Source: Heterotrichella gracilis (Eukaryota; Sar; Xanthophyceae; Tribonematales; Xanthonemataceae). From it: a stretch of DNA of 23,521 nucleotides. Position 1 is the stretch's first letter; each line of letters opens with the position of its first letter. A program made the position numbers and the translations under genes. The notes below the pieces were generated by a model. That model made no database searches, was not told the DNA's origin, and worked only from the letters and a program-made list of their open reading frames with translations. Shown piece after piece: positions 1,660-23,521 of this stretch. The stretch is taken from assembly GCA_032358255.1 (NCBI GenBank), contig JAULBX010029159.1, forward strand, positions 1 to 23,521. Direction: 5' to 3'.

Positions 1660-4538
1660 ATGCTGTCCTCGGAGCTGCGTGCGCGTGCGGAGCGCCTGGA
1701 GCGCGAGCAGCGCGACCGGGCCGCCAAGGCCCGGCAGGCGGCGGAGCGCGAGCGCCAGGTGGCGCTGCGCCATGCTGCTCGGCAGGCAGCTGAGGAGGAG
1801 GAGAAGCGGGCGCGGCGGCTAGCGGCGCAGGCAGCGGAGGCGGCGGTGCGTCTGCGTGTTTGAAATTTGCCTGGAATATTGTAATCTATTGTACAAATTG
1901 TATTTGTAAATATAATGCGCATTAAAATTATATTATATCAACATAGTTTACATGGGAATTATCTTGAAACTTGGATTATATCTATAACTTACATAGACTA
2001 TAGACTATAAGCTAAAAATAGGGCAGCGTAGGGCAATGCAAGAATATAGTCATGCAGCGCCAAATCCCAGCAAGCTGTGTACACTTTTTATTAAACTCTA
2101 CACCCCTTAAAATAGTAATAAAATTCGGATCTGCAGGCCCGGGAGGCTCACGAGGAGGGCCTTGAGCACAACCGGGGGGTGGCCTGGTCAGACTCCCTGC
2201 ATGCCATGCCCATAGATACTGAGGGCGCACGCGCAAGGGGCATAAAGCGTGCCGCTGACAAGCTGCTGCTGCCCCCCTCTGTGGGGCAATGGCTGATGGA
2301 CCAGGGGGCACCACGCAATGGGGCCATGTTTTTTAGGGTGGAGCTGGCAGGTGGGGATGGGGGTGGAGGTGGGGGTAGGTGTGGGGTGGGCCTGCAGGTG
2401 GGGGTGGGGATGGTGGGATACATGGTCTGGCGGCATGTATCTACCTGCGTGTGTATGCGGGCTGTATACATTGCGTGTGCGTGCATGTGCATGGCTGGGT
2501 GCTGGCATGGTGTGTACTGCAAGAAGGACTAGCTCATGTACAGGCCATGCGCAGTTGTCACAGTCGCGTCCTCATTACATGCACGTCCCACCCCTCCATC
2601 CCCGTGTCCAACCCTGCCCCTGGCCCCCACACTCGCAGGCCGATCCACCCATGCCGGCGTGCTGGAGTTCACTGCTGCAGAGGGCACCGTGGGGATCCCC
2701 CCCAAGGTTTACAAAAGCATACTGGGACCGGGGGCAACTCCAGCTGATGTGGCGGGGCGTGCGACTGTGACCTACCACCGATTGGAAAAGGGTGCGGTTT
2801 TTAAAAACCCTAGACTGGTTGATTAGACGCGGGCATAAGTTTCAGGTTGCGTGAGTACAAGGCACACGTGTTGCTGCCTCTCCTATTTTGTGGTACACCT
2901 TGGGCATCATACTTCTTACAGCAATAGGCGCTTTAACACAATGAAAACCGTTTCAAAGAAGGATATACGTGTATTTCATACGCCCTGTCCTATTATTATT
3001 TGCAAAATCATAGTACAATAAAGTGAAGAAGAATTGCCTTACAAAATTCTGTTAAATTCCCTATTGCAATATTTACATTCCAACCCATCCCACCTTTCCA
3101 CTTGTACTCCCAGGCACCTTCACCCGGCTGCAGCCTCGCAGCGCGTCCTTCCAGGAGAGCATGGCCGACTCCCTCAAGGGTGTGCTTGAGCTAGGGCTTG
3201 AGGCGTGCAGCTGCCTGAGCCAGGGGGACTGGGTGGAGGTGGAGGCGCAGGGGGTGGTGTGGGACCTGCAGGTCAAGGCGCTGCTGCCGAACCCACAGGT
3301 GGGAGGTGGGGGGAAACTTGCTGGTCTATGCACTGCTGTCAGACTCTCAGATGGCAGGTGGCATTTGGCAGGTGGCACACAAAAGCTGCGGACCAAAAAT
3401 CCGACCCAAATCCCTAGCTCTGCATGTGCCTGTTACCAATACTGAGCTGGAGGCTGTGGGAACACCCTTTCCCCTAACACAAAACCCTTATCGCCAAAGC
3501 ATGTTGCTCAAACCCTGTGCTCTCCCAGGTTTCTGTGATCGACACCGAGCTCGAGGCTGAGATTGAGCCCAGTGTGGAGGGCGAGGAGCGCATGCGGGCA
3601 GAGGAGGAGGAGGCCCTGCGCAGGGAGAAGGCGGCATTCGAGGCGACAAAGCAGGAGGAAAGGGAGAGGCAGGTGGGGGCCCATGTATATTATTTTATTT
3701 TATTACAGCATGGTTTGGGACGAAAAGTGTGGCTTTGGCAAAAGGAATTCAGTGGGCGGCTCGAGAGCAGCACCTCCCTTTTCTGCTCCCGCAATGCTGC
3801 GGGTGTTCTGGTGGGCGCTATACTCTCTTTAAGGCTACACACCCTATATCCTTGCACCCACCCAGTTGCCACCCCCCCCACCCACTCGACCCCATCCGCA
3901 CCCCCCCACAGGAAGCCGAGGAAGCCGCAGCACAATCCGCTGCAACTGCCGCAACCCACCAGCAACGCCTGCAGCAAATGCGGGAGCAGAAAGGCGCCGC
4001 GCTGCCCCCCGAGCCGCCCGCCGACTCCCCTTCCCCGGTGACGCTGTGCGTGGTGCGGCTGCCGGACGGTGGGCGGATCAGCCGGAGGTTCCTGCAGGGG
4101 GAGGCGCTGCAGGTGGGTGGTGGTGGAGGGGTGGGGGGATGAAGGAGGGTGGGGGATGTCCGGCTGCTGTTGCGGGAGGACGTGGTAGGGAACAGCAACA
4201 TTAGGGGTTTGGGTGTAGCGATTGGTGCAAGCGACTGTGTTGCAAAATGTTACAGAGCAATTGGAGGGATGCAGACTCTATTAGAGGAGGGTTTCTGCTA
4301 GGGTTTTAACCCCAAATGTGACCCTTTCCCCCGCCTGCAGGTTGTGTTTGATTGGATCGATAGCCAGGGAGGTGGTGGCATGGAGCCGGGGACATATGCG
4401 CTGGCCACACAATACCCTAGGAGGGTGTTCCAGGTGGAGGAGGGGGATCGGAGTGTGGTGGAGGCGGGGCTGACTGGGCGCCAGGAGGTGATGTTTATGG
4501 AGACAAAAGGGGAGGGAAACCCTGGCAAGCAGGGGTAA
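1660..4538 (+). CDS. UFD1-domain / UBX-domain CDC48 (p97) adaptor, seven exons
   Basis: Predicted adaptor that brings ubiquitinated substrates to the CDC48/p97 unfoldase in cytosol or nucleus. Exons read by eye: 1660-1845, 2137-2350, 2639-2791, 3114-3298, 3529-3672, 3912-4112, 4341-4538. All have GT/AG borders, the phases close (0,1,1,0,0,0), and the sum is 426 codons plus TAA. Residues 1-62 form an Arg/Glu/Ala-rich coiled coil (ERLEREQRDRAAKARQAAER) like the start of plant PRLI-interacting factor K. Residues about 95-200 are the UFD1 fold, seen as LLLPPSVGQWL, GAMFFRVEL, THAGVLEFTAAEGTVGIPP, GTFTRLQP, CSCLSQGDWVEV and VSVIDTELEAEIEP. Residues about 205-285 are a second charged helix. Residues about 295-385 are a FAF/UBXD8-like UBX domain: LPPEPPADSPSPVTL, VVRLPDGGRISRRFL, VFDWIDS, TQYPRRVF. 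YPR replaces the usual FPR p97-binding loop. PRLI-interacting factor K ends in zinc fingers instead. The start is the first ATG of the coiled-coil frame. I am sure of the domains and fairly sure of each border. Confidence 0.86.
2351..2420 (+). repeat. G-rich tract at start of intron 2 of the UFD1-UBX gene
   Basis: Directly after the exon 2 donor, the intron is almost pure G/T with many GGGG and GGTGGGG runs on the coding strand. It could form G-quadruplexes in DNA or pre-mRNA and may affect donor use. Nearby introns, for example 4113-4340, also start G-rich, but this tract is the densest. Function is inferred only. Confidence 0.5.
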
Positions 4539-5266: not shown

Positions 5267-8075
5267 ATGGCGGTGTCTGACACGAGGGGTGGTGGCGCTG
5301 GTCCGCAACCTAGCAGCAGCAGCAGCTCTGGCGGCGGTGGAGAGGGCCAGGCAGGCATCAGCACCCGCCACCGGTGCTGCTATGGCGCGCTTTTCTACAG
5401 TCAAGCTATGCACAACGCGGGAAAGCTGCCGGTACGTTTATGAGATGGGCGCGTATGCATGCATGCACAGGCACTATGCATGCACTTCGGTAACATATTC
5501 ATGCGCACAGCACACCGAGTGGCAAGCGGTAGGCATTTTCATACGAGTATTTGTCTGGAGCCGTGGGTCGGACTGTGCCGGGAGTTTTTCGTTTGCCACG
5601 GTGGAAGTGTATGGTGGGGTGGTTGGTCGTGAGAGACCACGACCATGCAGGCCCTGTAGGTCAGTAGCTCTTGACACTTTATGCCCTGGGGTTGACTTTG
5701 GATACAGCTTATACCAGTGTGGCATTATCAAAGTGTCACCTTCGTCACTGCAGGGTTGGGCACACCATACCGGCTCAACCCTCATACCATCAATCTGCAG
5801 CCCGAAACCTGCCCACACCTGTCACTGCCTACACGCAAACCCCAAAACCATGCGGTTGAGTACTTGCCGCCGCAGCATGCATGTGCCACTGAGAAGGCCA
5901 GCGGATGGCATGCGCCCAGCGGGGTACTGCAGTGGGGTTGTGCAGTGGGATAGCTCCATCCTCCAGTGGTGCACCTCTGCCAGTGAGGTGCTTCTCCTGG
6001 CCCTCTCTAGTTCTGACCTGCGCCCTGCCCCCTGCAGAGGTGTGGAGGTGTGCCCGCCACCCGGGACAGCGCCAATGACCTGGCATCTTTACAATCCGAG
6101 TCAGTCCCCAGCGGCGACTTCAGGGTGCGTACCTTGGCGCCAGCAGATGCACATCCTGCGTGGCATGTGCATGAGGCGGATGAGTGCATACATACATGCC
6201 AGCAGGATATTGAGGTGGATTTTTTTTTTGCGTCCACTTGCATGGCAGCTTGTTCGCATGCCTATCGAGTACAAGCATATGAGGCCAAGGGTGCATACTC
6301 GCAAGGGCATAAGCGTGGTTGGTATTGCAAGGGGCATGCCCATCACTACAGGAGGTCACACGAGTACACACTTGCAGTGCTTACCATATGCATGGCGGAC
6401 ATATACCTCTCCTCGCCCCATGTGCATGCACAGCCCATACCAAGCTACATACAAATTCAAGCGATCACAAGCACAACCCGCACCATACATCCACCTGCAC
6501 ATGTAGACTCACCCCCCCCACACATATATCTATATTGATGTTATATTGATTTTGACACATGGGTGTGCAGTACATGTGCGTGGGCTACTCCCAGTACAAT
6601 GAGTCTGAGCTGCGAGCCAAGCAGCGGACCACAACGCCGGGCGGGCCCATAGATTTACCCTACTGCGAGGGTTTGGAGGTCATCTCTGCAGCGGCTGTAG
6701 ATGGACCCATGTTGATGAAGGAGGGGGCTGGGGGAGGGACAGGTGTGCGAGTGTGTGGGCGGGGGTGGGTGGAAGAAATATGTCTGCCAGGAACCTAGTT
6801 TTCATGTTTGTGTGGGGTTTGTGAGCAGAACAGAGTTAATAGTTTGTCATCAATCCCACACTTGCTACTAATGGTCAGCAAGATGCGGCGTACATAGTGT
6901 AAGCCCCGTAACGCATGGCTTGGCTAACAGTTTGTTGCTGTTGGGCATTGCGTGTTCTGGGCATGTCTGTTCAAATACTTGGGGTATGCACAATCCATAT
7001 GTACAGAGATATTTGCGGCAATCGGGGATTTTAGCGCCTGCGCAAATTTCGCAGATTGTCTATTGTCATGACCCTCCCACACACTACCCCTGCCAACGTG
7101 GTGCCCTCCCCCTCCTTGCAGCTGCAGATCTGCCCCGGCCAGAGGGCAGCGGAGACTTGCCAGGTGGCGGACGAAGACCAGCGTGGGGTGCGCCATGTGC
7201 ATGCATGTCACACAAAACTGCACATGCACATGCCCACATACACAAAAGCCGTGAACATGGCACATGCCTTGCTGCTCACACCCAGACATGCACATGCATG
7301 GGGCAAGCCACTTCTAGTCTCATGCTACATGGGCGATCAAGAGAAGCACTCACATGGATGAACCACGCTCATCACAACGCACCTAAAAAATGTTTGCTGT
7401 TCTCTCACTGCACCCTCCTTTGCCCTGACCTGCAGTTGGCCAGCCTGGCGTGAGTGTGGAGGAGTACCCAGAGAGGTGGGTAGTGGTAAGAGTGGGTGTT
7501 AGTGTGGTGTGGTGGTGACTGCTGGTCATGGGTTGTCAGGTTAATGATTACGGGGGCAATATTGCTAGAGAGTGGAGGGAAAGGAGATATACGCGGCGAC
7601 CTCTGCCATGGACTATGCCGCATTTTTCAACAACAAAGCATGCTATTCCAGTGTTTTGTGTGGCTAGCACAGGAGCGTAGTTCAGGTATTGTGTCGACGA
7701 GTGTTTTCAGCCCAGACTCTCATGCCATGACTAGCATGAATCTTAGACCTAAAACTTTGGCTGTGCCTGAGTAGCATGCCGTGGCTCAACCCTCTGCCTC
7801 TTCTCCACCATTCACAGAGCTGGCGTTGGCAAACCACCCGCAGAGCGCAAGCCCTTGCATCTCAAAGGCACACATCCTCTCACAAACTCTGCAGAAGGGT
7901 TATAAGTCTTGGCCCAAAATGCACAAACCCTCCCTATAACCTCTGTTGCAGGGTTCGCAAGATGTCACTCAAGATCGTTGACAAGATGAAGCGCAATTTG
8001 GACCACATGGCTGGCAGCGTGCGCAAGACACTGGGCCAGCTCAGCAATGACATTTTTGGCAAGGGGAGGGAATAA
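5267..8075 (+). CDS. Conserved-looking protein of unknown function, six exons
   Basis: I do not recognise the family. Exon model: 5267-5431, 6038-6124, 6571-6742, 7122-7187, 7436-7475, 7952-8075. Each border is GT/AG, phases run 0,0,1,1,2, and the total is 654 nt (217 codons plus TAA). The closure of all phases, including a 40-nt exon, supports the model. Residues 1-35 are Gly/Ser-rich and low-complexity. Then comes a compact segment CCYGALFYSQAMHNAGKLP, followed by SVPSGDFRYMCVGYSQYNE and LPYCEGLEVISAAAVDGP, which look conserved and globular. A Gly/Pro-rich linker (about 108-145) leads to a basic amphipathic C-terminal helix, MSLKIVDKMKRNLDHMAGSV, ending GKGRE. No signal peptide or membrane span is seen. 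Exon 4 could instead end at 7163, also phase 1. Introns carry many ATGCATGC and TGCACATGCA runs. The long open frame over exon 1 and intron 1 is in another register and is not coding. Confidence 0.62.
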
Positions 8076-10780: not shown

Positions 10781-10978
10781 TTAAAGCGCCACCAAGGTGT
10801 CTCTTACAATCATTGTTTTAATCTGAAGCTTGTCAAAACCGGTACTGGATGTGTCAGTCATGGCGCCACCGTTGGCAGCAAAAATGACAAGGCCATCACG
10901 TGCATCTTGCATGTGAGAGTATACGCCTTTATTAGGATTGCGGAACTGTAACTTCTTCGTTGGAATGCTGTCTCCCAT
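10781..10978 (-). CDS. Modular gene, last visible exon (type A module)
   Basis: The acceptor (GTCCGCAG) is followed by ATGGGAGAC, read as an internal Met: MGDSIPTKKLQFRNPNKGVY, then a beta-type stretch with DGLVIFAANGGAM and a short helical end FDKLQIKTMI. A strong donor, GTAAGA, follows codon 57 at 10808, so the exon may be 171 nt, exactly the length of the exon at 17252-17082. If that donor is not used, translation stops at a TAA at 10781-10783 after eight more codons, making this the terminal exon. No accepting exon was found downstream. Confidence 0.6.
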   Translation of the reverse strand: MGDSIPTKKLQFRNPNKGVYSHMQDARDGLVIFAANGGAMTDTSSTGFDKLQIKTMIVRDTLVAL

Positions 10979-13900
10979 CTGCGGACAAACAAGGAACTTT
11001 TTGGAAAATTTGCCAGCCAATTATACTAATTACACAATGCAATGCTTGACTCAGCTCTGTGAAATTGTCCACATCCACATGGATAGGCACCTTCTTACAC
11101 CATGCTGGGGTTTATAACAAACGCAATGTATAGGGACTTTAAAAAGGGGCAAATAGACCACTTGAAGTCTGTCTATAATACCGCAGTTTGTTGGTATGCC
11201 TCAACATGCAAAATAAGGCCATAGGTCATTACTTACCGCGGCCAGCTATGTGTAAATGTTGTCACGAGGTTATTGGTTGTATATATACTACAAGTATGGA
11301 TATTGTCATAACTGGGATTGGGCCATGGGTGGAATGCGAATCGTTCAGCATACTCTTTACGGTTGTCAACTATGTCAACTATGCCAAGCAGATTTAATGC
11401 GCAATGTCCTGGTATGTCTGGCTATGCATGGTAGTTCTACGTATAAACTGACCTTGCACTATAGTTAATATGGAGGGTTACTAGGGTTTTTTATTGCAGA
11501 ACTTACTGATGTTGACTCTTGTAGCAATGCTACTCCAATTTCTTAGCTGTCAAGTGGATCTTGTGAGGTCCACATATTTGTTTGGCCAAAAGCTGTATCG
11601 CTTGTCACCACCGGACTTGAGATCGCGCAGGAAAAATATCACGCTTGAGCTTCCCATTTTCCAGCGCATTGTAGGGTTTCCCATGTCCTCTTCCATGAAG
11701 GTGATGCCTCTGACTGTCAGTTGATCTAAAGTCAAAGAACCCTGTGCACCCCAATTGTAAGCAATTAGAGCGTATGTTGCTTGACTCAGCCTGCAAAGCT
11801 GTGTGCAGGCTTGTGTGCACCAAATCTGTGTGCAACTGGTGCCGCAAAGCATGCCTATATAGGGGCTACAAAGGGGAGAAGTGTTGAAATGTGCAGCTGC
11901 ATGCATGGTGCACATTGTCCATTATGCCCATACGATATCTCTCATGTTGGTTAGCATAATCCCCTTGTGCAACTTGTCCCTTGTCATGCAAGTAATATTA
12001 TCCCCTCTAAACACGATTATGTTAATTGATGGTCACTTTGCTAAAATTATGCATACAAAAGTAAGGTGGCACGCTGGGTGTTAGTAACACCCAGCGTGCC
12101 ACCTTTCTTTTGTATGCATAATTTTATCTCACTCCGGCAACATGAGAGAATGCACATTTACCAACGTACACCATGCACAAAACCCCACTCTACTTAACAC
12201 TCTAGTCTAGACATGAAGTCATCCCCATCAGTCGACCCATGAAGCCATGGGGCTGCCAACATATACCGTAGGTAAGTGATTGGCTTGCTCAGCAGGGAGC
12301 ATCAGCATCGAGCAAATTTGGCAGCACATCTCAAGCTGCCAAGGATACCTAGGTACCTAGATTTGCCACGCATATATCTCCTACCATAAAACGCAAAGAT
12401 TATCCTACATGATCTAAGCAAGCGGCGGTGTCTCACAAGTGACAGTGACAGCACTGTAATACCAGTATGTTCGGAGGGGTACTTACCGAGCTGATGTCCG
12501 TAAGTTTTGCGAGTTTGTTGCCCTGTCTACCAAACATCCACACCCCACTTCCATCATCCCGGATACTCAGGTACACATCTCCGGATGGATTACTGAACTG
12601 TAGCGTCTTTGTGGTTATTTGTTCTCCCATCTGCACAAGGCAGACAAGTCGTAGTTTTGGAAATCCAAGTGTGTTAAACCGTATACATTTAGTTACATGT
12701 ATACTTCTTCCCCCTTCCCAGCGAGCGAAAAATGTACAGCGGGCCTCAACTATTTGCTGGAAGAGAAACAAACTTGAGTAAATAAGGGTTTTGTGTTAAA
12801 AAAAAATTGTTTCATTGTCGTTTGGATTTCGTTTGCCAACTTATCATATGACCACTGACAATGGTTATGATAACATTGCTAATTAATATAGAGGTTGGAA
12901 CCCAGCTCTTGCTTGCACTGGTGCACTAGCTAACATTGGTGACATAACATTCAAGCTGGCCCACACCTATTGAAGTTTGGGTTAGGGTAGCGGCCAATTT
13001 TACACTTACCCCTGCGACTTGAGCTGTGACCCTGTTGACTTGGTCTTGCATCGCATTGTACCCTTTTAGATTTATTATGCCACCACCAGCTTCAAAGGCA
13101 TATCGAGAATCTGAGCCAGCATCTGACGTGACGGTGTCGCGGATGACGAAGGCGCCATCCACAGCATAAAACTGCCAGCGGTACTTAGGTGTTGCCAAAT
13201 CTCCTTCCATAAATTTGATGCGGTAGACATTGAGGGTTTTGACCGTTATCTCATTCTGCAAAGCACATGTACATGTGTAAGAACCTTGTCGTACATTCTC
13301 CCATCTGCGCAAGACACACAAGCCGTATTTTTGGGAGGTCGTGGTAATACTCTTTGTTAAGTTACATCCAAGAACTTGATCATTTTAAAATGAAAGTTAA
13401 TTTTGAGAGTATCCACTGTTATGATACCGGTACCCTGTGAACACAAAGGACCCTGTTCGCATTGCAACTTGTAGGTGGTGGACTTTTAACAGTATGTATC
13501 ATACGAAGCCTGGAGGTTGAACCTGCTAGATGTGGCGTGAATGCACTGTGTGTCTCACGTGGTGCATTGCTGGTGCACACCATAAGTGCCAACCTTTTCA
13601 GCGTTATATAAGTCCTATCCGCACAAGGCCCCCGCGCGTATGCAACGTACGCAACGTGGCTTTAGGATTTACATGTGTGTGCGCCCACATTGTTAGCGTT
13701 TGCATTTGCATGACTTTAGGGTCTAGGGTTGCGCCCGCGTATAACAACCCTTGACCCTAAATATTTTAGGGTTTAGGGTTGCCCCTGTAGGGCTTCAGGA
13801 TATTGGATTGCCCGTACCACAGTGTTGACTTTAGAGTTTCCCCTAGCAAGGCTTTTATGGTTGCTCCTACTCGCCCACATTTAAGATTGCGCACACCCAC

Positions 13901-16900
13901 AAGTTTTGAGTTCAGGGTTGATCCCACAGGGTTCACATTTGTATACGCATAGTTCCATAGTTTAGGGTTTAGAAATTGCAAATTCCCACACTTCTAGGGT
14001 TTAAAGCTCCCCTATAGGGCTGTAGTGTTGCTTCCACAGGTAACCATGGGGTTAAGGGTTGGCGATTGCGTTAATTGCGTGCGCGCACATAGCCCACAAT
14101 GCAAAGTTTAGGGTTGCCCCTATCCGAGTTTTGGGTTGCGTACGTCCACGGTGTCAGATTATAGGGTTCAGGGTTAAAAACGCCCACATTTTATGGGTAA
14201 GGATTTGGGGTTGCCCCCGAGAGTTTTATGGGTCGATTCCACAGGACTTTGGGTTCGGGTTGCGTACGGCCACGGTTTTTAAGTTGAGGGTTGGCCTCGC
14301 ACGGCTTTAGGGTTTAGAACATCGTGCGCCCACAGTCCTCAATTTTAGGATGTAGAGATGCCCCTGCAGGGTAACTTAAGGGTTTAGGGTTGCATGCCCC
14401 ACTACGCTCTAGGGTTGCTCCCGCTGAGCTTGAGGGTTTACATTTGCGTGCGACCACACTAAAAAGTTTAAGGGTTGCTCTTACATGGCTTTAGGGTTTA
14501 TGGCTGCGCATGCCCTATGCTTAGAGTTTGGGGTTGCACTCGCACGGTGTTTGGGTTGCGCACGCCCACAAGTTACTGTTTTGGGTAGTCCCGTACACCC
14601 ACGTTTGAGGTCGCGCACTGCCACAAGTTTGAAGTTTGCAGCCTATTATGGAAGCACATGGCGCATTCATAGAAGCAACTTGTTGCAAGACACTAGGTGT
14701 TTTCAACCCAAATGGGTGAAATAGGTGGTTCTCAAGTGCGTTAACAATGATCAATTATAACATATAAATTATTCTTGGTAACTTGATTCAAGTACCAAGA
14801 ACCAAGATATGATCCAAGTCCTTGGTACTTGGTCTTACTTGGTCCAAGGCTCTGGCGCTCACTCAAGGGCTTTGCTAGCTTTGCGGACTATGCAGACCCC
14901 TAGCGAGCACTCGAGTATGCCCTAATGTGTTAGGCATCTGCTGCAAGAGTCAAGCCGTATGCCTCACATCCTGAGCATCATCTGCCAATGCGACCCCCAC
15001 CCTCCCCCCCCAGCAACGCGCCTCATGAGAGACACAGTGCATTCACGCCACATCGATGTCCAGCAGGTATCTAGCAGGTTTTCAGACTTTGTAGGATACA
15101 TAGCGTTAAACCTCCACCACCTACAAGTTGCAATGCATAACAGGGTCCTTTGTGTTCACAGGGTACCGATACCATCACAGTTGATACTCTCAAAGTAAAA
15201 AAGGGTCAACATGCGCTTGACATGGTGTTGCTAGACCCTTGGGTTGAGAGCCTCACCCTGTAACCGACTTTTCTAATGGCTTTGAGTGTAATTCTACACA
15301 TTTTTATTGACCCTTGGTGCAAAATCACCTTCGTCAAAGACTACACAGATCTTATGGAAATTTCATTGGCTTTCAACAACAGTCATAAATTTTGGAACAC
15401 CTCTACGCCCGAGCGCAAAGGCCATCAAAGTAGTTTATGCTTATGGTTGGGGAAAATGCATGCTTGTGCCACTACTTCCAGCGAGCGCTGAGTGGTGGGG
15501 TGCGGATGCTTTCTATTAAACAGCTGGTATTACTTTAAAAAAACTGTGAACAAGTGGCTGCTGCTTGTAAGTGGATGGGTACTTACCTGACTCAGTTTTG
15601 CTTCGATGTTTTCAAGCCTGATTCTAATCGATATAAAGCCAACCAATTTGCGGCCCTGTGTGGGGTTCTAGGTTGGTGCACACCCCTATTTCTGATGTTA
15701 CGATTTTCTTAGCTTAAGTGGGCAACAAAGCATAAGTGACAAATCCATGGGCATTATGTTCGGCTGGTTGGGACCTTTAAGATGTTTACTGGACGAGTTG
15801 GTTCGTAAATGTATGTATTACCTATATAACAAATGATGGATCATGAGCTTTGGCAGTTGGCATGCAGCTAAGGCAGCTTTAATGAATGCATCGCAGCAGC
15901 GACACTAGCAAAACCCACATTGCCAGGCTGGTAATATCATCTGCATACATTATCAGGAAAACGATAAGCTGCAGGTTACCCTTAACGGGACGAGACGAGG
16001 ACCTACACAACTGGCCATCTATCTTGTAAGCAATGGTATTGCCCAGGTCCTGCATAACCTCCAGCACTTGGATTATTATCCCCTTGCATACTGTTAAGTT
16101 TAACAACTACAACATAATTAATAGACGATTCACAAAATCACAAACTAAGCAATTGTGATATGCATGCAAGGTGGAACGCAACATGAGAAAATAACACAAC
16201 AAGGAAGATATCTTTTGCACAATGCACACTATTCACAAGACAGGTTTGACCCAAAGTTGGATTCAAGCACTGGCTAACTTAGGTTCCAGCCATGGTGCGG
16301 CTCTGCTCTAGTAGACACACAGAAAATGTGATGCCAAGCGAGAGGCATTTTTTTACAAGCCGATTTGGCAGCACATACGAAACTGCCGTGGCAAAACTTA
16401 AATAATAAAATGCTGAGAGGGACATGCAAGGGAATGACCAGCCTCCTAGGCTGGCTCTCATGGCTCTCACTCACTCTGTTTCTTTCTCAACCAATGCCCT
16501 GGTACCTCAATTGAGACGAGGAGCGTTGTATACTCATTTATTTCGATGCTAAATTGACATGCTAGACTTTTGTTCTCATTTCTCACTCTCCACAGACACA
16601 CACACCATTCATCCATCTCAACTTTCTGAAGGAAATACAAGCCCTGTCTATTAGGGAATTATTTATTACTTTTATTGTTGTCCCCGTAGGACTTAATAAT
16701 TGCGCGCCCCACAGTAAGCAACATCCCAACAACAAGGCCACCAGGTCAACCTAACCTACAAACTATATGGTCAATTTGAGGTGTCCTGTAAAGGTTTTGC
16801 CTAATTTGACCATGTGACATATGTGATATGGCCCTTGCTGATGGTAAGTCCATAAACACCACTCCCCATCCCCTCTTGAATATCAGTATAAGCCTTGTTA

Positions 16901-19900
16901 AATGAAATAATGACAACGAGGCATGCCTGCTATCCACCCTATGCACAATACCTACAACCTAGGTACTGTATTACACCTATGTAGAAAACGTAGAATCTCC
17001 ATGCCCTCTCTTTGTAAATCGAACAGAAACAACCTCGACACATTACGCTCATCAATAGCTATAGTGATGATACGAGCGCACCTGGTTGGAGAATTTCGTT
17101 GAAATGGTTCCAGAAAGGAAGGTGCCCAGGCCAGAGCCATCGTTGAGCTCTTCAAGATTCCATATGGGTTTGCCAAATTTATTGAACAGAAGCCTCCGCA
17201 CAACCGCGTCACCACTTACTGTGAGGCTCTTTGTCACAATACTGTCCTTCATCTGTGGAAAGGGACAGAAGACAGGAGTGCAATTAGTGAAATGGGTCCT
17301 ACGCGACGTAGCTAACGTAGCAATGGAACGGAATATTAGGAGGGAAAGGCGTGGAGTAAGGAGAGTAAGCCCCCTTTAGGTACCCTAGGGGAGGGAGCAC
17401 TGTAAATGCCCACAAAAAGGCATGCAGCAAGCCCACATGGGCAGCAATAGCAATAGAAACGTGAAAGAAGTTTTAGTAGTCTGTTGCGTATGTTGCGCAT
17501 GCCCACAGTATAGAGTTTAGGAGTTGGGGTTTCCCTGCAGGATTTAGGGATTTAGGACTGCCCACCCCTTTGCAGTAGAGGTTTTAGTGTTGCCCATGCA
17601 CAAGTCAAGGTTTGAGGGTTGGCTCCTGCAAGGATTTAGGGTTCAGGGTTTTGCACGCCCACAGTTTCAGACTCTAGGACTGCCCATGTGAGCTAAAGGG
17701 TTGCCCCCGCTGTGCTTGTGGGTTTAGGGTTGTGCAAGTACGACCAATATAACAGTGTAGACTTTAGGGTTTAGTGTTGCATACGCCCACAGTTCTATGT
17801 TTTAGGGTTGCCCCTGCACTTCATTCCGGTGTTGCTTACGGTAACGCGCTTGACACTCTATATTTACAGTGTTAAACCTCCTAGTACTAGTGCAAGGGGC
17901 ATGATTCCTCCACGAAATCTAACTGATGCGCTGTAAGAGCTCCGCAACTGTACCCTTGCTTATGGTATTTTAAGCTCATGGCACAGACAAACGACCACAA
18001 ATTGCAAGTCCAGAAACCTGCCAATATGTCATACGTACGCCCATTGTATTAGGTTTTAATGATTGGGGATGCGATAGATGCAAATATCTACATTTTAGGG
18101 TTTAGGGTTGCCCCCGCAGGGATTTAGGGGTTGGTCCTGCAGGGCTTTGCGGGCCCCTTTAGCCCCTTAGGGTTTAGGGTTGCCTCTGAGAAGGTGCTAG
18201 CTGGGATCCTGGATTACAGTTGATTGCGCCCCCAATATTGCTTTTAAATTTGCACCCGTAGGACTTCATGGTTGCTTAGGTTGCTCCGAGGGCATAGGAT
18301 AAAGGGTTGCACTAATTGCCGCCCCCAGTGTCAAGTACAGGGTTTTCTTCCAGGGGTTTAGGGTTGCTCCCAGCAAGTTCACATGTGGGGTTGCGCACGC
18401 CCACTGGTTCGGAGCTTAGGGTTTGCTCCTTGTTCATGCAAACATTTGACTCATGTATAAGAAGAACATTGTGCAGGTATGCAGGACACTGGGTCTTCTA
18501 ACCAAGTTATGTAAAATAGTTTGATTGTTAAGGCATGACAGGCATTACCAACATGATTTACTGTCAGAAAGTGCGTTGCAGGTGCCCATCTTGTGTCCAT
18601 TGTCACCATCGTCTAGGATATCCGCGTGGTAGCTTTAAGGTCTGTAATCCCATATGCAGCGGTTGAGGAGCGTTTCCAAATACATTTAGGATTAGGGCTG
18701 CGTTCCCACACACTTAGGGTTAGGGGTTTAGCCCCGCACTACTTAAGGGTCTAGGCCCTAGGGTTGCGTGCCGTCCCCTCGTACCCCTCGACATGTAGAT
18801 CTTACAGTTTGCTTCCGCAAGGCTTCAGGGTTTAAAGATGCGTGCGCCCCTCAAGGTGAAGATTCTATGGTTTGCCCCCGCATGGCTTTAGGGTTTAGGG
18901 TGGCGTGCGCCCTCCAACATGGTGTGCACACCGCAAGACTTTAGAGTTGTTGAATTGAGAGGGGTTCTTTAGGGTTTGCTCTTGCCAGGACTTATATAAT
19001 TGCCTTATTATCAACCTGCAAACTGCGTATATTTGACCGGTCGGATTTGATATGAATGAAGTAGCTGAAATGGGGGGGATGTGGGCAGACTGAAATACAG
19101 ACAGGGATGTGTTAATTAAATTGGTATTTACTAGGTGTGCAATTTAGCGGGTTTAAAAAGGCATAAAATGAACGGCATGAGTTCAAAATGAACTTCAGTG
19201 AACAAACAAGACTTGCTGGTATGTTATGTCAATGCCAGAAACATGGCCCAAGGAGGACAAAACACCATACCAGAGGTATCCACTGTAAGTAAGTAAGTAA
19301 GTAAGTATATGCATTCCAGCTTTGAAGCCAGGTTAGCATGTCTGGGTATGCCTCACCCCAGTCCTAGAGCCAAGGCTTAACTGACACTGTTTCCAGTGTG
19401 GCAGATGGTGGCCAACCAGTCGTGCCCCTTACCGCACTGAGGTATCCACTGTGGTTTGCCATATTCACAATTAGCCTTAGGAAAGTGCAGAAAGCAGCGC
19501 AAGGGCTTGACCACATTTATGCAATGGCTGCTGGAAGGGGCTGAGGAATGTCCTTACATGTCAAGCTACCTGGCTTGTTTGTGACTGTGATCACATCATC
19601 ATCTTTTTGTTTACCAGCACGCAACCATCCAATCCACCATAGTATGTACGATATATACGATAATGGTGTAACCGGTGAGGGGAATGGCCTACCTGGTGCA
19701 CAATGTTTTGCCATAGTATATACTAAACTTACCGCATTCATGTTCGAGGCGAGGTCTTGGACCTGCGTTGCAGGGAATACATTTGTAAGACCAAGAGGTA
19801 TCAAGCACATAGCCAGTAGGTATCGAGAGTGCAATAAACTGCCGTTGCGCAACCAAGTACTACATGATGTGCATTTGCACGTCCACAATATGATGCATGT

Positions 19901-20638
19901 TGTTTGCCTGGGCAGCGTGATATGCAATTACTTTGATTACTTGCAACGTGCAGTGGATGCAGTGAATTCTGAATGCAAAGGTGCGGGTCTGGTCAAGAGT
20001 GCACCTCATGCTCATGATGACATAAGAGACACAAGGGTTAAAAGCTGGTGAGCAAAACCTCTGGCCTTGCTAACGCAAGATATATACCTGTGCATGCTGG
20101 TTGGAAGGGCCATTGCATCAGGGCCATCTAGGCCATCAATTGGCCATTTAACCCGTCTTTTAAATCTGAGGTGTGTGCATCTAGGGCGGCATCGATGTCT
20201 TCAGTGCAGCACAATAATATTACTTACCTGTTGTTGCAAAGATGATACTTGCGCTTTCAAGGCTGTCAGTTGGTTTGCAGGTGCGCCATGAAACAGGTAG
20301 GTGTAGAATGTTCCTCCGGGAGATGTGAAGATGAATACATCGGAATAATTACCATCCTTCTTTGCCGAGGAACTGAGTGAGCACAGTATGGAGTACTGCG
20401 TATTTGGGGTCAACTTGCTTTTGAAAGTTTTTGAAGCATCTTTGTCTAGTACGGGTCCCAATAGCTGGCAAGAGACATCCGGGCTGGTTTTTATCCCATT
20501 CAAACTTGCTGGTGCATTGTTGTTGTCAGGGGTGTACACGAGGTCGACGGCAACCGAATCTTTGTTGATATTGGACTGCACATTGAATCGCATCCCCGAA
20601 GCATATAGTTTCAGACATGCCACATACGCGTCGTACAC
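10781..20638 (-). CDS. Large modular gene: beta-type modules alternating with coiled coil, fibre-like; 5' end not found
   Basis: I do not recognise this gene. Exons in transcription order: 20638-20228, 19762-19733, 17252-17082, possibly about 16090-15987, 15655-15587, 13255-13010, 12630-12487, 11741-11507 (damaged), 10978-10808 (or read through to the stop at 10781). Nearly all have AG/GT borders with GTAAGT-like donors, and the intact ones are multiples of three in phase 0 (411, 30, 171, 69, 246, 144 and 171 nt). Symmetric phase-0 exons are the signature of module duplication. Modules start with a shared pattern: SIVTKSLTV, EITVKTLNV, QITTKTLQF, SIPTKKLQF, SLTLDQLTV. They end in short heptad coils. 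Short beta strands followed by coil, repeated, resemble trimeric phage or viral fibres and adhesins, which is an inference from architecture alone. Introns are long and repeat-filled. No signal peptide is visible because the start is missing; it may lie beyond the retroelement cluster. It could be several neighbouring genes or partly pseudogenised. Confidence 0.55.
11507..11741 (-). pseudogene. Modular gene, damaged type B module exon with in-frame stop
   Basis: After a CACAG acceptor the frame reads GSLTLDQLTVRGITFMEEDM, then RWKMGSSSVIFFLRDLK and KRYSFWPNKYVDL. It aligns along its length with the exon at 13255-13010 (ITVKTLNVYRIKFMEGDL, YRWQFYAVDGAFVIRD, SRYAFEAGG). An in-frame TGA at 11552-11550 falls where the coil should begin. 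The apparent donor GTAAGT at 11506 leaves 235 nt, breaking phase 0. It is either the true C-terminus of a shorter protein or a decayed exon. Because its neighbours are phase 0, it could be skipped without loss of frame. Confidence 0.6.
12042..12126. repeat. Near-perfect palindrome, 42-bp arms with one-base centre
   Basis: The left arm 12042-12083 (starts TAAAATTATGCATACAAAAG) and right arm 12085-12126 are reverse complements with one mismatch, around a single G at 12084. It sits in the intron between the 12630-12487 and 11741-11507 exons. No obvious target-site duplication flanks it. It could be a foldback element, a hairpin RNA source, or an assembly fold-back artefact. Confidence 0.95.
12487..12630 (-). 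CDS. Modular gene, 48-codon exon (type A module)
   Basis: Acceptor CTTGTGCAG, then MGEQITTKTLQFSNPSGDVY, LSIRDDGSGVWMFGRQGN and a short helical end KLAKLTDISS, with donor GTAAGT. It is 144 nt, phase 0 at both ends. The first 15 residues match the exon at 10978-10808 (MGDSIPTKKLQFRNPN), and the intron 3' end just upstream is also similar between the two, which indicates tandem duplication that included intron sequence. Confidence 0.68.
13010..13255 (-). CDS. Modular gene, 82-codon exon (type B module with coil)
   Basis: Acceptor CTTTGCAG, then NEITVKTLNVYRIKFMEGDL, TPKYRWQFYAVDGAFVIRDT, SDSRYAFEAGGGIINLKG, and a coil MQDQVNRVTAQVAG with hydrophobic a/d spacing M-V-V-V (4,3,4), then donor GTAAGT. 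It is 246 nt, phase 0 at both ends. The W-x-x-DGAFVIRDT pattern resembles the repeated display or fibre domains found in some phage and algal-virus structural proteins, a resemblance from memory that needs a profile search. It is paralogous to the damaged exon at 11741-11507. Confidence 0.7.
13304..13345 (-). other. Relic type A acceptor and exon start inside the intron before the 82-codon exon
   Basis: Reading the minus strand, the intron carries TGTCTTGCGCAG then ATGGGAGAATG, almost the same as the active borders before 12630 and 10978. Using it would put a TGA in frame after 17 codons, so the gene apparently uses the acceptor about 49 bases further on (exon start 13255). This marks an old copy of the type A exon start. 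Confidence 0.6.
13610..14650. repeat. Degenerate telomere-like repeat field 1, intronic
   Basis: About 1 kb with more than a dozen TTTAGGG or TTTAGGGTT motifs separated by two alternating spacer types, one like GCGCACGCCCACA and one like GCCCCTGCAGGGC. The motif matches the plant and green-algal telomere unit, but the copies are interrupted and diverged, so this is a compound minisatellite and not a real chromosome end. It lies in the intron between the 15655-15587 and 13255-13010 exons. Confidence 0.8.
14772..14852. repeat. Inverted CTTGGTACTTG repeats
   Basis: CAAGTACCAAG at 14789-14799 is the exact reverse complement of CTTGGTACTTG at 14821-14831. Further CTTGGT and ACCAAG copies flank both, so this intronic stretch can fold into alternative hairpins. 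Confidence 0.8.
15162..15263 (+). other. Module-like open segment on the opposite strand
   Basis: After a plus-strand acceptor-like TTCACAG, the frame reads GTDTITVDTLKVKKGQHALD and ends at TAA 15261-15263. The ITVDTLKV core is like the ITVKTLNV start of the minus-strand modules, at protein and partly at DNA level. It may be a module copy inserted in inverse orientation, an exon of an antisense gene (a possible donor CAGCAG/GTATCT lies near 15066), or chance over ten residues. Confidence 0.3.
15587..15655 (-). CDS. Modular gene, 23-codon coiled-coil exon
   Basis: The 69-nt phase-0 exon reads GRKLVGFISIRIRLENIEAK then LSQ, with donor GTAAGT. Hydrophobic residues I10, L14, I17 and L21 follow the 4-3-4 coil spacing. 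The donor is clear; the acceptor (CCACACAG) has a weak pyrimidine tract, so the start is less sure. Confidence 0.5.
15987..16090 (-). CDS. Possible coiled-coil exon of the modular gene
   Basis: An open minus-strand frame contains VLEVMQDLGNTIAYKIDGQL, with coil-like spacing V-M-L-I and similarity to VQDLASNM in the 30-nt exon. A phase-0 donor GTTAAG follows at 15986. I could not fix the acceptor; the start coordinate is approximate. Confidence 0.3.
17082..17252 (-). CDS. Modular gene, 57-codon exon (type A module)
   Basis: Acceptor CTTTCCACAG, then MKDSIVTKSLTVSGDAVVRR, PIWNLEELNDGSGLGTFLSG and the end TISTKFSNQ, with donor GTGCGC. It is 171 nt, phase 0 at both ends, the same length as the 10978-10808 exon, and shares the M-x-D-S-I-x-T-K-x-L start. 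The SLTVSGDAVV stretch is typical of short beta repeats in fibre proteins, which is an inference. Confidence 0.68.
17490..18975. repeat. Degenerate telomere-like repeat field 2, intronic
   Basis: About 1.5 kb of the same compound repeat as field 1: TTTAGGGTT cores with GCGCACGCCCACA-like and CCCCCGCAGGG-like spacers. It is interrupted by non-repeat sequence near 17870-18060 and 18430-18680. It lies in the intron between the 30-nt exon (19762-19733) and the exon at 17252. Confidence 0.8.
19273..19452 (-). mobile_element. 5'-truncated SINE-like insertion with target-site duplication
   Basis: The element body 19287-19438, read on the minus strand, ends in a (CTTA)n tail seen as AAGTAAGTAAGTAAG on the plus strand. 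It is flanked by identical 14-base copies GAGGTATCCACTGT at 19273-19286 and 19439-19452. The body closely matches 21621-21770 in opposite orientation, so it is the 3' part of the same family, cut off before the tRNA-like head. The duplication is exact, which suggests a fairly recent insertion. Confidence 0.88.
19733..19762 (-). CDS. Modular gene, 30-nt coiled-coil microexon
   Basis: The ten codons read VQDLASNMNA, with acceptor CAACGCAG and donor GTAAGT. Joined to the end of the preceding exon (LTALKAQVSSLQQQ), the hydrophobic positions L, L, V, L, V, L, M run in unbroken 3-4 spacing across the junction. This supports both the tiny exon and the join. Confidence 0.65.
20228..20638 (-). CDS. 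Modular gene, 137-codon exon: possible beta-sandwich then coil
   Basis: Acceptor TTGTGCAG and donor GTAAGT bound 411 nt in phase 0. It starts VYDAYVACLKLYASGMRFNV. Its centre has alternating strand-like segments (VAVDLVYTPDN, FKSKLTPNTQYSILCSLSSS, SDVFIFTSPGGTFYTYLF) in the style of fibronectin-III or Ig-like folds, with two or three Cys. The end, LTALKAQVSSLQQQ, is a coiled coil that continues into the next exon. This is the most upstream exon I can support. It begins in phase 0 after an intron, so at least one earlier exon is missing. Confidence 0.68.
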
Positions 20639-21489: not shown

Positions 21490-21774
21490 ACCCAGCCGTT
21501 GGCTCAGCATCTGAGTTTGAGTTGAGTCTTGAGTTCAACTAAGCAAGGGGTCGCAGGTTCGAATCGCAATACTTTTCGAATTTCCCTGAACTTTGCGACG
21601 GGATAAATGGGGAGCACGAAAGTGCGGTAAGCGGCACAACTGGGTGGCTACCATCTGCCACACTGGAAATAGTGTCAGTTAAGCATTGGCTCTAGGACTG
21701 GGGTGAGGCATACCCAGACATGCTAACCTGGCTTCAAAGCTGGAAAGCAAATACTTACTTACTTACTTTAGACT
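21490..21774 (+). mobile_element. tRNA-derived SINE with (CTTA)n tail
   Basis: An A-box-like TGGCTCAGCAT at 21500-21510 and a B-box-like GGTTCGAATCG at about 21556-21566 give the internal RNA polymerase III promoter of a tRNA head, spaced as in tRNAs. A tRNA-unrelated body follows from about 21590 and ends at (CTTA)n near 21756-21774. The body matches the truncated copy at 19287-19438. The T stem does not pair well, so this is a tRNA relative and not a functional tRNA gene. The 5' border is approximate and no target-site duplication was found. Confidence 0.72.
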
Positions 21775-23303: not shown

Positions 23304-23521
23304 CAGATTTTGTTTGTTTGGATCCACCGTGTGTTCTAGGTGGTCTGGGATCCTGGAATTGTCCCTGTCGAGTGGAAGCAGGCGGTGCTAGTGCCCCTGT
23401 TCAAGAAAAAGGACCGCTCAGTGTGTGATAATTACAGGGGAATGAGTCTCCTTAGTGTTGTAGGAAAAGCCTTTGCTTATATCCTTTTGGATAGGCTAAG
23501 TGACTGGATAGAGGGACAGTT
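23304..23521 (+). mobile_element. Second LINE reverse transcriptase, cut by the window edge
   Basis: From about 23343 one open frame reads VWDPGIVPVEWKQAVLVPLF, then KKKDRSVCDNYRGMSLLSVV and GKAFAYILLDRLSDWIEGQ, up to the last base. This is the N-terminal finger region of a non-LTR reverse transcriptase, with the NYRG-SLLS block intact. It follows the C-terminal YGCEVWG region of the previous element and so belongs to a separate copy, of a family close to the minus-strand fragment at 21161-21480. One stop lies just upstream, near 23337. Confidence 0.8.

Follow-up and report, generated by a model that had tools for sequence, protein, structure and literature searches.

Viral fibres show a coil-into-strand architecture, in which a coiled coil runs into a beta strand, and metazoan exon shuffling classically uses phase 1-1 exons. 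Annotated tail-fibre and YadA-like adhesin genes are present in prasinoviruses of green algae (PMC12906663). The locus analysed here lies on contig C664 of an apparently algal assembly (68.5 Mb, 903 contigs); the contig is the entire window, that is, the whole stretch of DNA that was analysed (23,521 bases). A first-pass annotation had described a modular, spliced gene of coils and short modules, to be read either as an algal surface fibre or as a captured viral structural gene. Exon structure, module relationships, coil register, divergence and possible relatives were analysed, and a second gene on contig C238 was brought into the comparison.

Gene structure and genomic setting

The left part of the window contains an intron-rich gene whose exons, joined by hand, match both N-terminal Pfam domains of UFD1 (E 2e-11 and 7e-10), and contig C664 is therefore eukaryotic. 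Seven open exons (A, B, C, D, E, F and H; table 1) were found on the minus strand, each with AG before it, with a length that is a multiple of three and in phase 0; the last two points agree with the first-pass annotation of the intact exons. GT follows directly after each of the six exons preceding H; the donor is GTAAG in five of these and GTGCG in exon C. Joined from A to H with exon G left out, the exons form a single open frame. Exon G has an AG acceptor and GTAAGT, yet its length is not a multiple of three, and it is either a decayed exon or an alternative last exon.

Table 1. Features of the window gene (contig C664) and of the second gene (contig C238).
Feature	Contig	Position	Strand	Description
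Exon A	C664	20228..20638	-	137 aa, 411 nt; CAG acceptor, CAG|GTAAGT donor; most 5' exon found; region without assigned fold; a heptad coil begins after it and continues into B and C
Exon B	C664	19733..19762	-	10 aa (VQDLASNMNA), 30 nt; coil micro-exon; CAG acceptor, GTAAGT donor
Exon C	C664	17082..17252	-	57 aa, 171 nt; class I module; phase 0; donor GTGCGC
Exon D	C664	15587..15655	-	23 aa, 69 nt; possible coil; phase 0; GTAAGT donor; weakest of the set
Exon E	C664	13010..13255	-	82 aa, 246 nt; class II module, then coil; phase 0
Exon F	C664	12487..12630	-	48 aa, 144 nt; class I module; phase 0
Exon G	C664	11507..11741	-	235 nt; class II duplicate of E; in-frame TGA after 63 residues
Exon H	C664	10781..10978	-	65 aa plus stop, 198 nt; class I; CAG acceptor, TAA end; taken as terminal exon
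ATG exon	C238	11400-11513	+	hydrophobic signal-like stretch, judged by eye
Large exon	C238	from about 13806	+	own reading of the sequence
Coil exon	C238	ending 15344	+	11-residue-repeat coil
Module m1	C238	16091-16258	+	class I; phase-0 sites
Module m2	C238	16524-16673	+	class I; phase-0 sites
Module m3	C238	17038-17343 plus stop	+	class I; phase-0 sites

The stretch between 10.7 and 20.7 kb was scanned mechanically for phase-0 exons with a GTAAG donor and no fewer than 40 codons, with 500 dinucleotide shuffles as the null. Four exons were returned on the minus strand and none on the plus strand (shuffles: mean 0.24, maximum 3), and the minus-strand count exceeds chance. The four were A and E, a form of F that begins at a further acceptor and a form of H that stops at an inner GTAAG; exon C was missed. 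The longer exon F, starting at 12756, was rejected because the homology between F and H begins exactly at 12630. It was also considered whether H is internal, with its end at GTAAGA (10808). This reading was rejected in favour of the TAA because the H tail (STGxxKxQI) is similar to the tail of the final C238 exon, a weak similarity (46 of 2000 shuffles as good). From exon A up to the end of the contig (23521), the sequence offered only weak candidates for a 5' exon. Judged by its sequence, the window gene is a real-looking spliced gene, and the exons would be joined in vivo in the order given.

Modules shared by two genes

Exons C, E, F, G and H open immediately past the splice junction with I/L-x-x-K/D-x-L-x-V/F, in agreement with the start motif reported for five exons. 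E and G share 37% identity (blastp E 4e-9) and F and H 42–44% (blastp E 1e-9), with 0 of 2000 shuffles as good in either case, and both pairs read as clear diverged duplicates. When single exons were searched against the whole genome, F matched H (E 0.0036) and E matched G (E 0.006); neither query gave any match beyond these up to E 10.

With the joined exons as query, one additional locus was found in the genome (C238:15992-16228, E 1e-5), and the reverse search from C238 returned C664 (E 5e-5); only the best candidates are scored in such a search, so two loci are a lower bound and the family has at least two. The C238 gene (table 1) turns a single curiosity into a family. Its ATG exon, with the hydrophobic run of a putative signal peptide, would be part of the gene. 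The intron between its large exon and its coil exon would be in phase 1 by our reading of the sequence, and phase 0 is therefore no rule for the entire gene. Searched against the genome, the N-terminal part of the C238 gene matched only itself and exon A only its own locus; the two genes thus have a module tail in common but no recognisable common head.

Exon C and m1 are 50% identical (E 2e-12), and m1 matches m3, m2 and F with E values of 2e-7, 7e-7 and 7e-5 (all in a 12-sequence database). Every pair that C, F, H, m1, m2 and m3 can form (15 in all) was scored against 2000 shuffles. No shuffle reached the score of C-m1, F-m1, F-H, m1-m2 or m1-m3; few did so for C-m2 (1), F-m2 (6), C-H (36), F-m3 (41), H-m3 (46) and C-F (80), and four of the 15 pairs were at chance (m2-m3, 356; H-m1, 360; H-m2, 617; C-m3, 1026). 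It is m1, in the second gene, that links exon C with F and H. Scores of E or G against these modules were reached by 59–1210 of 2000 shuffles (best for F-G, 59), the start motif alone being held in common. On the basis of these pairwise shuffle scores, we sort the modules into a putative class I, connected by m1 and F (members C, F, H, m1, m2 and m3), and a putative class II (E and G).

The class I motif is roughly K-x-L-x-F ... W-x-L-x-D-D-G-S-G-L-x-x-Y/F and stands out best in m1, C and m2. The genome had five matches to a DNA pattern encoding W-x-[hydrophobic]-x-[DN]-D-G (control: two), of which two are m1 and m2; those on C58, C152 and C634 were dropped, as translation showed no module around them by eye. 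A profile of m1, m2, m3 and C placed F first among 2151 non-training frames (E 0.03), a match that is not significant alone because the frame of the C634 match follows just behind (E 0.07); H was at E 6.7, and E and G were not among the matches listed.

Coil register across splice sites

The hydrophobic a/d register of the heptads was scored against 20,000 shuffles per segment. Starting at the end of exon A, hydrophobic a/d positions run unbroken across micro-exon B and on into C (1 of 20,000 shuffles), and the heptads are also unbroken across the junction of E and F (0 of 20,000). Neither exon D together with the beginning of E (2885 of 20,000) nor the F/H join (7190 of 20,000) gave a significant heptad. 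The proposed interleaving of modules with coils is supported at A/B/C and E/F, with no significant coil at D/E or F/H. Preservation of the register over the splice sites of A/B/C and E/F would otherwise be hard to explain and argues that these exons are joined as drawn.

The coil of the C238 gene fits a heptad pattern poorly (8067 of 20,000 shuffles). It fits an 11-residue repeat that extends into m1 (0 of 20,000 shuffles, for a pattern and segment picked after inspecting the sequence). A coil running into the start of a module is accordingly seen at A/B/C, at E/F and at the C238 coil into m1, and is not significant at D/E or F/H.

Divergence, selection and possible decay

In DNA-only alignments, 120 of 124 columns were in the same codon phase for C/m1, 102 of 102 for F/H and 67 of 67 for m1/m2 (0 of 500 shuffles each), as were all 62 columns for E/G (1 of 500 shuffles as good); the alignment of m1 with m3 was reached by 166 of 500 shuffles. 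Over C/m1, F/H and m1/m2 there were 29 mismatches at the first codon position, 27 at the second and 44 at the third. For C/m1, dN was 0.37 and dS 0.77 in protein-guided alignments, which favour low dN; dS was 3.2 for E/G and beyond estimate for F/H. The slight third-position excess and dN below dS mildly favour purifying selection.

These data bear on the possibility that the window copy is a pseudogene of a C238-type family, a decaying gene in which exon G has acquired a TGA and lost its frame, no convincing 5' exon is in view and repeats swell the introns. We regard this as unlikely: the seven other exons are open and their splice sites intact despite largely saturated silent sites, the frame is single once G is omitted, and the missing 5' end is accounted for by the contig stopping upstream. 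The broken exon G nevertheless counts against the interpretation preferred below, and the copy could be partly decayed.

Searches for relatives and folds

Sequence searches covered protein, phage, viral and prokaryote collections and reach only sequences sharing short words with the query, so relatives in other algae may have escaped them. In a protein collection of 5.8 billion sequences, E limits of 0.01, 1 and 0.1 returned 4506, 7 and 1089 candidates, none of which scored, and no relative was found at any of these limits. Pfam gave only matches below the curated cut-offs for both genes, predominantly in coil regions; the strongest was to Apolipoprotein (E 0.0045), in the coil of the C238 gene. 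No match to the joined exons was found in the PDB, and the C238 modules and the module profile matched only antibodies and a capsid protein there (E 0.37 to 1.4). Prokaryote genomes held no relative, and YadA-type head, stalk or anchor Pfam domains were absent from the window gene and the C238 gene. No similar gene was found in the literature as judged by titles, which does not imply absence from print. Across the protein, Pfam, PHROGs, PDB, phage, viral and prokaryote collections there was no significant homologue, which supports the description of the locus as unrecognised and its place outside well-described families.

Exon A was modelled by AlphaFold as a single chain with a pLDDT of 39.5 and matched no Pfam family at E ≤ 1; the beta sandwich proposed for it is unconfirmed. 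Exon E modelled with G (single chain, pLDDT 47.1) gave four strands and a long C-terminal helix, a predicted layout that matches expectation but proves nothing; fold searches with this low-confidence model gave best E values of 0.064 (viral) and 1.3 (PDB). Taken with the sections above, the first-pass description holds for the exons and the start motif, in part for the coils (A/B/C and E/F only), and not for the beta sandwich of exon A. The end of that exon (LTPNTQY...SDVFIFTS) recalls fibronectin type III, and the gene might on that ground encode an extracellular modular protein of a known kind, strongly diverged and with a fibronectin-type head and a coil, whose members the libraries missed. 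Against this stand the empty Pfam result for exon A and the absence of this locus from the assembly's 11 PF00041 matches (E ≤ 0.01); we consider this reading very unlikely.

In a further rival reading, the alga captured a viral or phage receptor-binding fibre, which was then duplicated, gained introns and is now a host surface protein or idle. It would account for the architecture of coil running into strand, as in viral fibres, and fits the tail-fibre and YadA-like adhesin genes annotated in prasinoviruses (PMC12906663). Non-significant hints in its direction came from tblastn against phages, in which three Enterococcus phage records annotated as minor tail or tail assembly protein matched residues 183–239 of the joined protein (E 1), and from a PHROG tail-needle family on the A-B-C coil (E 0.085). 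Coding GC3 is also lower in the two family genes (0.52 and 0.51) than in parts of two left-hand genes of the window (0.77 and 0.72). On the other side, viral contigs contained no relative, the C238 modules had no match in phages, the best PHROGs match (E 0.016) was to a family without assigned function, and the viral fold library gave nothing at E ≤ 0.001, with a poor model as query. The giant-virus capsid family PF04451 had no match in the assembly, an absence that counts weakly because this single family was searched without a positive control. Furthermore, GC of the window gene (0.47) is near that of the surrounding DNA (0.456), and both copies are spliced, the second with phase-0 sites around its modules. 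Viral capture is unsupported by these results and we consider it very unlikely. Of the first-pass interpretation, the unrecognised, modular, fibre-like spliced gene is supported, and the alternative of a captured viral structural gene gains no positive support. An elaborated version, in which a viral fibre domain diverged past recognition, was domesticated by the alga and received phase-0 introns at its module borders to become a surface adhesin built of cassettes, seems to us very unlikely as well; were it true, adhesin length and binding modules would evolve through exon duplication.

Discussion

On balance, the observations are best explained by a nuclear, spliced host gene of a two-gene, lineage-specific family that encodes a rod-like protein of coils and modules, exported as a structural or adhesive fibre; we hold this to be rather more probable than its negation. 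The product of the window gene is probably a lineage-specific, fibrous, secreted protein of phase-0 exon cassettes, in which short modules of about 45–65 residues, predicted to be beta-stranded, would alternate with coiled-coil stretches. As modules and coils lie in phase-0 exons, the cassettes could be duplicated, lost or swapped without damage to the frame. Duplication of an E-F pair may have given rise to G-H, and the module tail may have been combined with different heads in the two genes, since their N-terminal parts differ. The signal-peptide-like exon of the C238 gene, together with its coil running into the same kind of module, favours an extracellular fibre of the host. The protein is most likely exported and most likely self-associates through its coils, probably as a trimer; we infer that it most likely serves at the cell surface or in the extracellular matrix, as a structural or adhesive fibre. 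This fibre reading is probable, though unproven. The gene looks like a clean eukaryotic example of a rod protein whose modular build coincides with that of its gene, and, if it is a surface fibre, it gives access to an adhesin or matrix protein specific to the lineage, of a sort that homology annotation would miss.

Three known systems offer themselves for comparison. The tail fibres of phages and algal viruses have serial short beta modules joined by coils, with a coil leading straight into the first strand, a layout that the one predicted here resembles; the present family differs in having no significant match to phage, viral or PHROG sequences and in being a spliced, two-copy nuclear gene. 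Trimeric autotransporter adhesins of the YadA type alternate a coiled-coil stalk with beta modules, much as is predicted here, whereas the family described here carries no YadA Pfam domain, is eukaryotic and spliced, and has a signal-like exon in the C238 gene only. Exon-shuffled extracellular proteins of metazoans share with it symmetric cassette exons that duplicate without loss of frame; here, however, the cassettes are in phase 0 as opposed to the classical phase 1-1, and the modules they encode match no known domain.

Repeats in the introns and neighbouring features

The intron between exons D and E of the minus-strand gene (introns being named by their flanking exons) contains an element of approximately 1.8 kb with terminal inverted repeats, which form three blocks with 87–90% complementarity; degenerate TTTAGGG-type repeats are enclosed by the element. 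Two arrays of degenerate telomere-like repeats were located in the introns, and in these arrays TTTAGGGTTTAGGG is present as exact copies at 3 places, together with a 55-nt repeat family (n = 9 copies). The F–G intron carries a near-perfect palindrome (98%) with 42-nt arms and a 1-nt spacer. Arms of a further inverted repeat, each 148 nt long and 95% complementary, are found within the B–C intron and upstream of exon A.

Positions of repeats, genes and the open frame in the window
Feature	Position	Strand	Basis
Gene with UFD1_N1 and UFD1_N2 domains	exons within 2137–3672	+	Pfam domains
Second gene, apparently spliced	5267–8075	+	without Pfam match at E ≤ 0.1
Element in D–E intron	13397–15199		
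Its terminal inverted repeats	13397–13573 and 15010–15199		
Telomere-like arrays	13687–14569 and 17607–18913		
Palindrome in F–G intron	12042–12126		
148-nt inverted repeat	19291–19438 and 21621–21768		
Open frame	23340–23519		

The open frame continues past the contig end. A Pfam search with its 60 amino acids gave 0 matches at E ≤ 0.1; in its sequence pattern it resembles a portion of a non-LTR reverse transcriptase.
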